Positions 31,481 to 35,096 of a stretch of 43,033 bases of DNA are shown here, one piece after another. The notes under the pieces were generated by a model. The model was not told the origin of the DNA. It searched no databases and was given only the letters and a program-made list of their open reading frames with translations. This DNA comes from an uncultured Erysipelotrichaceae bacterium (GTDB taxonomy: Bacteria; Bacillota_I; Bacilli_A; Erysipelotrichales; Erysipelotrichaceae): assembly GCA_902795865.1 (NCBI GenBank), contig CADBMV010000090.1, positions 1 through 43,033 of the forward strand, in the 5' to 3' direction. The first letter of the stretch is position 1. Every line of letters begins with the position of its first letter. The translations under genes were made by a program, and so were the position numbers.

Positions 31481-32254
31481 ATGAAAAACAAATATAAAAA
31501 CTTAAATAAAATTGAGAAATTATTTTTTAATATTTCAATAGCGCTTATTTTATATGGCCTATTCATACTGATTAAAATAGGTTTTCTGAGTTTGTTTAAT
31601 TATCTATTTGTGTTTACTGGTTTATTCTTACAATGCTTAGTATTATTTAATAAAAGAATTAAAAGGGAAGTATTCATGTTTATAAAAATAATAATTGCAA
31701 TAGTGTTATTGGTATTTATATGTGTTGAAATAAATATTATTTGTTTTTCTAGCAGAGATTATAATAGCAATGTTGATTATGTGGTGTTATTAGGATCGGG
31801 AGTAACTGATAAGGGACCTTCATTAGATTTTGTAAGAAGAATAGATTCCGCTTATGAATATTTAACTAGTAACAACAGTAAAGTGATAGTTACTGGAGGA
31901 AAAGGAAGAAACGAACCTGTCTCTGAAGCTTTTTGTGCAAAACAATATTTAATAGAAAAAGGAATAGTTGAAGATAGAATTGTTGTGGAAGATAATAGTT
32001 TTTCAACATATGAGAATCTGTTTAATGCTAAAAGATTAATTGAAAATGAAAAAGGTGATTTAAATAAAAATAGTGTTTTAGTTGTTTCTTCTTGTTTTCA
32101 TTTATATAGAGCTAGTTATTTATGTAATAAACTAGGATATACTAATGTATCATTTAAACCAAGTCTTGGAGTTGTTTATTTGTGGCCATATAGCTATACT
32201 AGAGAATTCTTTGCATTAGTGAAAGAAATTATTTTTTTCACATTAAGTAAGTAG
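31481..32254 (+). CDS. YdcF/SanA/ElyC-family membrane protein (DUF218)
   Basis: A 257-residue protein with three hydrophobic helices in the first 90 residues followed by a DUF218 domain. Its conserved motifs are VVLLGSGVTDKGPS, VTGGKGRNEPVSEA, the EDNSFSTYENL segment, and SSCFHLYRA. Members of this family (ElyC, SanA, YdcF) influence envelope integrity and peptidoglycan precursor or lipid-carrier metabolism in E. coli; the exact reaction is unsettled. It is co-directional with the L,D-transpeptidase, 3 bases downstream and without a Shine-Dalgarno, so the two are likely co-transcribed. Confidence 0.88.
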   Translation: MKNKYKNLNKIEKLFFNISIALILYGLFILIKIGFLSLFNYLFVFTGLFLQCLVLFNKRIKREVFMFIKIIIAIVLLVFICVEINIICFSSRDYNSNVDYVVLLGSGVTDKGPSLDFVRRIDSAYEYLTSNNSKVIVTGGKGRNEPVSEAFCAKQYLIEKGIVEDRIVVEDNSFSTYENLFNAKRLIENEKGDLNKNSVLVVSSCFHLYRASYLCNKLGYTNVSFKPSLGVVYLWPYSYTREFFALVKEIIFFTLSK

Positions 32255-32256
32255 GT

Positions 32257-32281
32257 CTAGTAAAACTATGATATTTACTAG
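32257..32281 (+). promoter_or_regulatory. Inverted repeat at the start of the mgtA leader
   Basis: CTAGTAAA (32257-32264) and TTTACTAG (32274-32281) form a perfect 8-bp repeat around ACTATGATA, which contains a possible -10 TATGAT (32267-32272). With no T-run after it, an operator or promoter-overlapping site is more likely than a terminator. No clear -35 is seen. Confidence 0.4.
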
Positions 32282-32309
32282 TAAAATGTAGATACAAGGA
32301 GGTAGCAAG

Positions 32310-32378
32310 ATGGAAGATCCTTTAAGTTATTGTAACAATACATCTAAAAGTCTTTTATCTGGCTACCACAACAGATAA
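32310..32378 (+). CDS. 22-residue leader peptide upstream of the Mg2+ ATPase
   Basis: A short open frame with an excellent AAGGAGG (32296-32302) 7 bases before its ATG, better than the site of mgtA itself. It starts MEDPL, and Tyr, Cys, Asn, Ser and Lys follow. It ends with a TAA inside the right arm of the hairpin at 32352-32381. The acidic-plus-proline start resembles enterobacterial MgtL (MEPDP), whose translation destabilises ribosomes at low Mg2+ and turns on mgtA. The strong ribosome site and the gene downstream are seen directly; the sensing role is inferred. Confidence 0.68.
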   Translation: MEDPLSYCNNTSKSLLSGYHNR

Positions 32379-32381
32379 AAG
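32352..32381 (+). promoter_or_regulatory. Hairpin over the end of the mgtA leader peptide, with alternative pairings
   Basis: CTTTTATCTG (32352-32361) pairs perfectly with CAGATAAAAG (32372-32381). The 10-base loop begins GCTACC (32362-32367), which is exactly complementary to GGTAGC (32301-32306) at the leader's own ribosome site. AGTCTTT (32349-32355), overlapping the left arm, is complementary to AAAGACT (32456-32462) just before the mgtA ATG. These pairings compete, as expected of a translation-controlled switch. Confidence 0.6.
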
Positions 32382-32462
32382 ATAATTTATTTGAGATCAT
32401 GACAATTTTTATAAGTTTCTTTGTTGTCTAGAACTCTTTTTGTGGTTGAAAGGGGAAAGACT

Positions 32463-35096
32463 ATGAAAAGAAAAACAAAAGATCTTGAGAAGAACGAGAA
32501 AAAACAAAAAAAGTTAGAAAAAAATCTCATTAAAGATTCTTATCTTAGTGTTGAACAACTATTTGGAAAATATGATAGTTCTTATGATGGCTTGAGTGAA
32601 GAAGAAGTTATAGAAAGATTAGAAGAATATGGTTTGAATACTATTGAAATAGAAAACAATCATCCTATTTTAAAAAGAATAAAAGAATCTTTAATTAATC
32701 CTTTTAATATTGTATTAATAATTGTTGCCTTAATAACTTTAGCAACTGATGTTTTGTTTGTTTCAAGAAAAGATTATTCAACATTTATTTTGATAATGTC
32801 AACAATTACAGTTTCAGCAATAATATCATACACACAATCAGCAAGATCAGATACTGCTGCTAATCAGTTAAAGAGTATGATTTCTAATAAGATGGACATT
32901 ATTAGAAAAGGCGTTATAAAAACTATTCCTGTAGAAGAAGTTGTTCCGGGAGACATTGTTAAATTATCCTCAGGAGATATGATTCCTGCAGATATTCGTT
33001 TTATAGAGACAAAAGACTTGTTTATAGATCAAGCTGCTTTAACGGGTGAATCTGCTGCGGTAGAAAAGTTTTCTACATGGAAAAAAGAAAGCGAAATAAC
33101 CGACTTACCAAACATTGGCTTTATGGGCACTGACGTTGTTTCTGGTACTGCAACAGCTATTGTATTAACAACAGGAGAAAACACTTATTTTGGGCATATG
33201 GCTAAATCATTAGAAAGTGTTTATCAACAGAATTCTTTTGAAAAAGGTGTGAATTCAATATCTAAATTATTAATAAGAATGATGTTTATTATGCTTCCTA
33301 TTATTTTGCTAATCAATTTACTAAACAAATCAGATGTGTGGGATTCTATTATTTTTGCTTTGACGATAGCGGTTGGTTTAACTCCAGAGATGCTTCCAGT
33401 CATCATGACTTCAACTCTTGCTAAAGGAGCTGTGATGATGAGTAAAGAGAAAACTATCGTAAAGAAACTAAATTCAATACAGACGTTTGGACAAATGGAT
33501 ATTTTATGCACTGATAAGACGGGTACCTTAACCGAAGACAAAGTAATACTAGAAAAATACATGGATTGTTTTGGAAATGAGAATAAAAGAATTTTAAAAC
33601 ATTCATTTTTAAATTCCTATTTTCAAACAGGATTAAAGAATTTAATTGATTTGGCAGTAATATCTAGAGCTGAGAAAGAGCAAATGGGTGGATTAAAAGT
33701 AGAATATGAAAGAATTGATGAAATACCATTTGATTTTGTAAGAAGAAGAATGTCTGTTTTATTGCAAGATAAAAAAGGTAAGATTCAACTTATTACTAAA
33801 GGTGCCGTAGATGAAGTTATGTCGGTGTGTAAGTATATCGAATGTGAAGATCTCGTTATTGAAATAAACGATGATTTGAAATCAAAAGCATATGAAACAT
33901 ACGAAAAGTATAATAATGAAGGTTTAAGAATAATTGCAGTAGCTCAAAAGAATCATGTTGATTTATCAGATGGATTATCTTTAATTGATGAATCAGACAT
34001 GGTATTAATAGGCTTTATAGGTTTTCTAGATCCTCCTAAACAATCTGCAAAACAAGCTATCAACGCTTTAAAAGCACATGGTGTTGATACAGTTGTATTA
34101 ACTGGAGATTCAGAAGGAGTTGCAATTAATGTTTGTAAACAAGTTGGAATTGATGTTTCTAATTGTTTACAAGGTAAGGATGTTGATGAATTAGATGATG
34201 AGCAATTGATAGAAAAATTAAAAGATTGTCACTTATTGAGCAAATTATCACCAATTCAAAAACAAAGAGTTGTAAGACTTTTTCAGGAATCTGGACATAC
34301 AGTAGGGTATATGGGAGATGGTATTAATGATTCTCCAGCTTTAAAACAATCAGATGTTGGTATATCAGTAGATACCGCTGTTGATATCGCAAAGGAAACC
34401 GCAGATATAATCCTTTTGGAAAAAGATCTAAATGTTTTAGAAAAGGGCGTAATCAATGGTAGAAAGACATTTACCAATGTTTTAAAGTACATTAAGATGG
34501 CTACCAGTGGTAATTTTGGTAATACAATGTCTGTAATAATAGCATCACTATTTTTACCATTTTTGCCTCTTCTTCCAATACATATCTTAATTCAAAACTT
34601 ATTAAATGATGTTGCTCAAATAGGAATGCCTTTTGACAATGTTGATGAAGACTATATTTCTTTACCTAAAAAATGGGATGAAAAAGATATTCAAAGATTT
34701 ATGTTTATTTTTGGACCAACAAGCACTATTTTAGATGTGTGTTGCTTTGTAGTGTTGTGGTTTATTATGAAGTATAACAGTATGGAAATGGCTACACTAT
34801 TTCAAACTGGGTGGTTTACATTTGGTATTGTTTCTCAAACTTTAATCATACATGCGATAAGAACAGATAAAATACCTTTTATTACTAGTAAATCTTCAAT
34901 ACAATTGATGATATCAACATTATTAGTAGTTCTGATTACCTTAATAATTTCGTTTACTGATATTTCATATATATTTAATTTAAGTAAACTTCCACTAGAT
35001 TATTTAAAATGGTTGATAGTATTATTGATTTTATATGTTTTACTTATTGAAATATTTAAGAGAATCTACATTAAAATAAAAAAACAATGGTTATAA
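32463..35096 (+). CDS. mgtA: MgtA/MgtB-type magnesium-importing P-type ATPase
   Basis: An 877-residue P-type ATPase. TGES is present in the actuator domain, phosphorylation motif DKTGT at about residue 351, the nucleotide-domain segment with IPFDFVRRRMSVL typical of Mg2+ ATPases, and the hinge GDGINDSPALKQSDVGISV. About ten membrane helices are present, and the Lys/Glu-rich N-terminus is cytosolic. The length is close to the 898 residues of E. coli MgtA. I chose the ATG at 32463 because AAAGGGG precedes it; an upstream TTG has no support. It follows a 208-base leader with a peptide frame and hairpin, and no M-box riboswitch was recognised. Confidence 0.93.
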   Translation: MKRKTKDLEKNEKKQKKLEKNLIKDSYLSVEQLFGKYDSSYDGLSEEEVIERLEEYGLNTIEIENNHPILKRIKESLINPFNIVLIIVALITLATDVLFVSRKDYSTFILIMSTITVSAIISYTQSARSDTAANQLKSMISNKMDIIRKGVIKTIPVEEVVPGDIVKLSSGDMIPADIRFIETKDLFIDQAALTGESAAVEKFSTWKKESEITDLPNIGFMGTDVVSGTATAIVLTTGENTYFGHMAKSLESVYQQNSFEKGVNSISKLLIRMMFIMLPIILLINLLNKSDVWDSIIFALTIAVGLTPEMLPVIMTSTLAKGAVMMSKEKTIVKKLNSIQTFGQMDILCTDKTGTLTEDKVILEKYMDCFGNENKRILKHSFLNSYFQTGLKNLIDLAVISRAEKEQMGGLKVEYERIDEIPFDFVRRRMSVLLQDKKGKIQLITKGAVDEVMSVCKYIECEDLVIEINDDLKSKAYETYEKYNNEGLRIIAVAQKNHVDLSDGLSLIDESDMVLIGFIGFLDPPKQSAKQAINALKAHGVDTVVLTGDSEGVAINVCKQVGIDVSNCLQGKDVDELDDEQLIEKLKDCHLLSKLSPIQKQRVVRLFQESGHTVGYMGDGINDSPALKQSDVGISVDTAVDIAKETADIILLEKDLNVLEKGVINGRKTFTNVLKYIKMATSGNFGNTMSVIIASLFLPFLPLLPIHILIQNLLNDVAQIGMPFDNVDEDYISLPKKWDEKDIQRFMFIFGPTSTILDVCCFVVLWFIMKYNSMEMATLFQTGWFTFGIVSQTLIIHAIRTDKIPFITSKSSIQLMISTLLVVLITLIISFTDISYIFNLSKLPLDYLKWLIVLLILYVLLIEIFKRIYIKIKKQWL

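Follow-up and report, generated by a model that had tools for sequence, protein, structure and literature searches.

Gene layout and a short ORF in front of mgtA

What controls the Mg2+ transporter gene mgtA in an uncultured Erysipelotrichaceae bacterium in which a short ORF with an acidic start, and no M-box, lies in front of the gene? In Firmicutes, transporter genes are known to be under Mg2+ control by the M-box riboswitch (RF00380), and in Enterobacteria Mg2+ is known to be sensed through leader peptides that destabilise the ribosome. The window that we analysed, 43,033 nucleotides long, is one contig of a draft genome (1.36 Mb). Its mgtA (32463–35096; this and all other window features are on the + strand) encodes a Mg2+-translocating P-type ATPase of 877 aa, matched by the equivalog model TIGR01524 with 1066 bits (cut-off 610.75 bits) and preceded by the Shine-Dalgarno (SD) sequence AAAGGGG at 32449–32455. 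A start at TTG 32421 was rejected because ATG 32463 carries this SD and aligns with the relatives. The upstream DUF218 gene has its stop at 32254, and the intergenic space up to the mgtA ATG measures 208 nt, the length given in the original prediction. The 22-residue peptide with a near-perfect ribosome site that was expected here is indeed encoded at 32310–32378 (MEDPLSYCNNTSKSLLSGYHNR), with the acidic/Pro start EDPLS at codons 2–6 and the SD AAGGAGGT at 32296–32303, an 8-nt match to the anti-SD complement; the distance from this leader ORF to mgtA is 84 nt. A consensus scan upstream of the leader revealed no sigma-70 promoter. A second 36-nt DNA match in the same genome (L032) is not a second leader, as it sits in an unrelated stretch.

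The covariance model of the M-box, applied at its gathering score to the window, the checked genus loci and the 36 genus genomes, had no match in any of them, and positive controls were matched. An Rfam scan of the window gave two tRNAs and nothing else, and the genus loci scanned had no match.

Conservation of the leader in the genus

The leader is real and conserved. mgtA is present in 19 of the 36 genus genomes, upstream DNA is assembled at 17 of these 19 loci, and all 17 have the leader, each preceded by a ribosome site; an 18th leader (L122 in G016) is followed by a truncated ORF at a contig end. In the window's clade (L001, L002, L018) the peptide starts with MEDPLS, continuing as MEDPLSRKN in L002 and MEDPLSRSR in L018. 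A sister clade of 15 genus loci, with MgtA ~55% identical to that of the window, has the start M[ED]xx[ED]xPLS, and its degenerate DNA, ATGGANNNNNNNGANNNYCCTTTATCG, has 15 exact matches in the 36 genus genomes, all of them before mgtA or at the G016 contig end. Here codons 2–6 vary, mostly conservatively, while CCT TTA TCG is invariant: TTA occupies codon 8 in 14/14 leaders and accounts for 5% of the Leu codons that the mgtA genes use, and codon identity at conserved 4/6-fold sites averages only 43%. The rare TTA between CCT and TCG suggests slow decoding or an RNA constraint. Pairing to the mgtA start, considered as an explanation for the invariant CCTTTATCG, occurs in some folds and is broken by four sister-clade sequences, and was rejected. 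The C-terminal part of the leader is conserved neither in sequence nor in length (15–25 aa in the sister clade).

Acidic-start leaders across Erysipelotrichales and beyond

mgtA was found in 77/316 genomes of Erysipelotrichales. For a wider survey, which also took in a few more distant relatives, the ORF with the best SD upstream of mgtA was chosen mechanically at each locus, yielding leaders at 62/108 loci, 57 of them distinct. As background we used 390 gene starts from the analysed loci, which are ordinary genes and not leaders of other genes. Asp or Glu is found at residue 2 in 41/57 distinct leaders compared to 44/390 gene starts (p = 1e-21, a value that overstates the independence of the counts, as the leaders are related sequences), and this feature recurs in many genera. 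Over residues 2–6 the leaders have on average 1.65 acidic and 0.11 basic residues, against 0.50 and 0.96 in gene starts. The peptides themselves are wholly different between genera, as in MEGQSC..LDDDPLG, MxxxDDYHSR, MEDSPHC and MDEGPKPE, and other families of the class add MEEPQSR and MEDSQSR.

A second regularity is an acidic residue followed within five positions by Ser-[Arg/Cys] (residues 2–14), seen in 28/57 leaders and in 4/390 genes. The underlying AGT[AT]G keeps to the reading frame in 25/26 cases, at codon 4, 5, 6, 9 or 10, and the Ser codon is AGT in most lineages and TCG in the sister clade; such in-frame placement at varying codons, together with TCG for the same Ser, indicates a constraint on the peptide or its codons. 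The invariant CCT TTA TCG and the recurrent Ser-[Arg/Cys] suggest something more specific than acidity alone, a point against the explanation favoured below.

Several variants were also observed. Leaders of one genus (g40; L090, L092, L095, L096, L113, L115, L116 and L126) have, around residues 16–22, a further acidic/Pro motif, DDDPLG, in which a TTG codon is retained, and the leader of L033 carries SSDDPLG. In two mollicute-type genomes with TGA read as Trp (L146, L150), a leader starting with MSPLSSFNDEVPI and having the ribosome site GAGGTG precedes mgtA, and a clear leader was not found in most other mollicute-type genomes examined.

Mutually exclusive pairings in the sister clade

The RNA logic is clearest in the sister clade. 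A GGCGGC(T) element inside the leader pairs with AGCCGCC just before mgtA (pairing P1). In 10/15 sequences its start lies exactly 40 nt past the leader ATG. It falls in each of the three reading frames, and the peptide tail varies freely, which marks GGCGGC as an RNA element. The same AGCCGCC can instead sequester the mgtA SD, as AAGCC(G)CC with GG(A)GGCTT (pairing P2), so that P1 and P2 are mutually exclusive and P2 hides the mgtA ribosome site. Mean z values against shuffled sequences are -2.9 for P1 and -2.4 for P2. The predicted openness of the SD is 0.50 with P1 formed and 0.20 when the leader is occupied as far as its stop, and the shift has the same direction in 15/15 sister-clade sequences (p = 6e-5). 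Both pairings are also kept in another genus, through changes that compensate one another: GGCGGTC/GACCGCC, and TCATACTG/CAGTATGA against CATGCTG/CAGCATG.

A hairpin and a loop pairing in the window's clade

In the window itself, the end of the leader frame lies in a hairpin (S1), as originally predicted, although it is longer than the perfect 10 bp proposed: the 5′ arm GTCTTTTATCTG (32350–32361, within leader codons 14–18, kept in L002, L018 and L070) and the 3′ arm CAGATAAAAGAT (32372–32383, supported by folding and by relatives, and holding the leader stop codon 32376–32378) form 11 Watson-Crick pairs and one G.U. The loop between them, GCTACCACAA (32362–32371), is 10 nt long in all four sequences compared. 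The best-conserved pairing, absent from the original prediction, is S2, between loop bases ACCACAA (32365–32371) and TTGTGGT (32440–32446), a strand 16 nt before the mgtA ATG that covaries with the loop. Its equivalents in the relatives are CACCACAG/CTGTGGTG, ACCGCAG/CTGCGGT and TCACCACAG/CTGTGGTGA; across the four sequences the S1 loop pairs with 7–9 nt located 13–18 nt before the ATG (p = 0.0365, 0.002, 0.0265 and 0.0055). Taken together, S1 and S2 have 95.8% of alignment cells paired, compared to 28–59% when slid, and include two compensatory pairs.

Two further pairings had been proposed. The loop can also pair with the leader's own SD (GCTACC/GGTAGC, 6 bp, p = 0.03 by shuffling), and 6–8 bp of this kind are found in each of the four sequences; since the register is shifted in the three relatives, and 54% of cells are paired in the alignment, support for it is weak, and it represents a possible feedback. 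The left arm is complementary to bases before mgtA in the window (AGTCTTT/AAAGACT), but L002 and L070 lack this match and L018 has it in a displaced position; it is probably due to chance and was dropped.

The S2 strand has a competitor. A 13-bp hairpin, UCUUUUUGUGGUU/GACUAUGAAAAGA (32435–32471), is predicted around the mgtA start codon by minimum-free-energy folding and would compete with S2 for TTGTGGT; its exact form varies among the relatives, also by prediction. Blocking the S2 strand in the window raised the openness of the AUG from 0.10 to 0.75 but lowered that of the SD, and the same computation changed little in the relatives; the programs used fold nested structures without pseudoknots, and such values cannot fix the sign of the switch in this clade.

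A proposed translational attenuator and its rivals

What would these pairings do then? We consider translational attenuation by a ribosome-destabilising leader peptide, with a response to Mg2+, to be the best explanation and a fairly probable one, by analogy with the known systems discussed below. In this mechanism a local hairpin would hold the mgtA ribosome site closed, while the leader would be translated from its strong ribosome site. With ample Mg2+ the ribosome would reach the leader stop and cover or melt the anti-sequestering hairpin arm, which lies in the final third of the leader ORF, so that complete translation of the leader leaves the mgtA site closed. When Mg2+ is scarce and the 70S ribosome is less stable, it would abort or pause at the acidic/Pro start (EDPLS, or ExPLS for the sister clade). 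This would let the hairpin form, and its arm (in the sister clade) or its loop (in the window's clade) would engage the sequestering strand, allowing mgtA to be translated. Translation of the leader and its abortion are what we infer from this arrangement, and Mg2+ is the presumed signal because the target gene is mgtA. Which way the switch works in the window's own clade is presumed by analogy with the sister clade, MgtQ and MgtL. The core idea of the original prediction, an acidic/proline leader with competing pairings before a Gram-positive mgtA, withstood the conservation check that had been set for it: the peptide start is kept in related genomes, and RNA pairings too.

The peptide could instead arrest the ribosome in a sequence-specific manner, stalling it without drop-off where Ser-[Arg/Cys] comes after an acidic residue, perhaps with help from the rare Leu codon and in response to Mg2+ or another signal, with the downstream RNA switch unchanged. 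The excess of this motif at residues 2–14 (28/57 leaders, 4/390 genes), the frame of AGT[AT]G (25/26) and the invariance of TTA (14/14, at 5% of mgtA Leu codons) would fit an arrest, and the position of GGCGGC at 40 nt (10/15) is close to the end of a ribosome halted at codons 8–9. However, Ser-[Arg/Cys] is missing from four sister-clade leaders (PLSS, PLSI twice, PLSL) and from the window (LSYC), and the known destabilisation is explicable by acidity and Pro alone, and we regard arrest as rather unlikely. Less likely still is a switch of opposite sign in the window's clade, in which the hairpin and the downstream loop close the mgtA site and translation of the leader opens it. In L002, L018 and L070 the S2 strand makes up the greater part of the local SD hairpin's loop, and a loop-loop complex that keeps the mgtA site closed is possible on these models; such a sign would, however, run contrary to the logic that is clear in the sister clade, and would be wrong for Mg2+ supply if the leader is stopped by low Mg2+.

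Could the ORF be incidental to a riboswitch-like RNA that senses a metal or ligand? Hairpins and pairings are conserved near the mgtA site, as such an RNA would have them, but the genus leaders have no Rfam match, the hairpin element drifts across three frames behind a fixed peptide start, the Ser codon changes its class and a ribosome site precedes every leader, all of which make this reading very improbable. That a small protein encoded by the leader acts on MgtA is scarcely credible: the strong ribosome site and conserved start would be expected of it, but the C-terminal part is unconserved (15–25 aa in the sister clade) and the peptides differ wholly among genera.

Comparison with known leader peptides

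The translational attenuator proposed here resembles Salmonella MgtQ, where abortion of translation on a uORF with Asp2 and Glu5 allows an alternative stem to free the mgtB ribosome site (PMC8092293). In both cases a short acidic uORF with a ribosome site has early acidic residues (Asp2 and Glu5 in MgtQ, Glu/Asp at residues 2 and 5 in the sister clade) and abortion of the uORF favours, here by prediction, an alternative stem by which a Mg2+ P-type ATPase gene has its ribosome site freed. MgtQ differs in being 8 aa long, in its location between mgtC and mgtB within an operon under PhoPQ and in having no recognisable sequence relation, whereas the Bacillota leaders are 15–34 aa long and lie in the mgtA 5′ region. 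In MgtL, the EPDP motif leads to ribosome drop-off, which at low Mg2+ raises mgtA (PMC11282234). The MgtL-like start that had been noted in MEDP stands as an acidic/Pro motif in a short ORF of the mgtA 5′ leader (EDP at residues 2–4 in the window) and in the acidic enrichment of the relatives, but not as homology, since neither the peptide nor its leader RNA shares sequence with MgtL. The outlet of MgtL is Rho-dependent transcription termination, whereas the predicted outlet in the window is the mgtA ribosome site. As there is no shared sequence and the modelled switch looks translational, MgtQ-like rather than Rho-dependent, we do not assign the leader to MgtL.

Leaders in series with the M-box

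Elsewhere in the order the M-box precedes many mgtA genes, in contrast to its absence from the window's genus. At 18 other loci of the order it lies upstream of mgtA, and most of these have an acidic-start leader between the M-box and the gene. The order therefore contains loci with M-box plus leader and loci with the leader only, the window being of the second kind, and the original contrast between leader and M-box holds for the window's genus (0/36 genomes), while elsewhere in the order the two often occur together. At L049, L056 and L064 two successive short acidic-start ORFs are found between the M-box and mgtA (in L064, MDDYLSMNF and then MEEHGRYDN). A comparable layout is known from M. 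tuberculosis, where an M-box is followed by the conserved uORF Rv1805A (PMC12810186), which also has a conserved Pro; that uORF does not precede an MgtA-type transporter and is restricted to mycobacteria.

We found no acidic Mg2+ leader from Bacillota in the open-access library searched. It is conceivable, though we would stop short of calling it probable, that mgtA genes in Erysipelotrichales and other Bacilli are under the control of a large, so far undescribed family of leader peptides that respond to Mg2+, in many species in series with the M-box; as part of the same tentative reading, the hallmark of the family would be an acidic start, then usually Ser-Arg or Ser-Cys. If so, one tandem transcript would read Mg2+ twice, as the free ion via RNA and via ribosome stability. 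The tandem loci make it a testable question what a second, translational sensor adds to the riboswitch. A sequence-unrelated counterpart in Bacillota, wired to translation initiation, would also mean that the Mg2+ dependence of the ribosome was recruited as a sensor more than once, and the many natural peptide variants would provide a ready set for finding ribosome-destabilising nascent sequences.

Further variation in layout was observed. Genome G276 has two mgtA paralogues (L102, L127) with leaders of different types: one resembles the window's clade, with an RNA hairpin and loop, and the other the sister clade, with a GCGG-type switch. In L016 (484–1482, - strand) and also in L006, a protein with MgtE_N and CBS domains is encoded directly downstream of mgtA; the L016 protein has no Pfam match to the MgtE membrane domain and is possibly a split Mg2+ sensor subunit of the mgtA operon.
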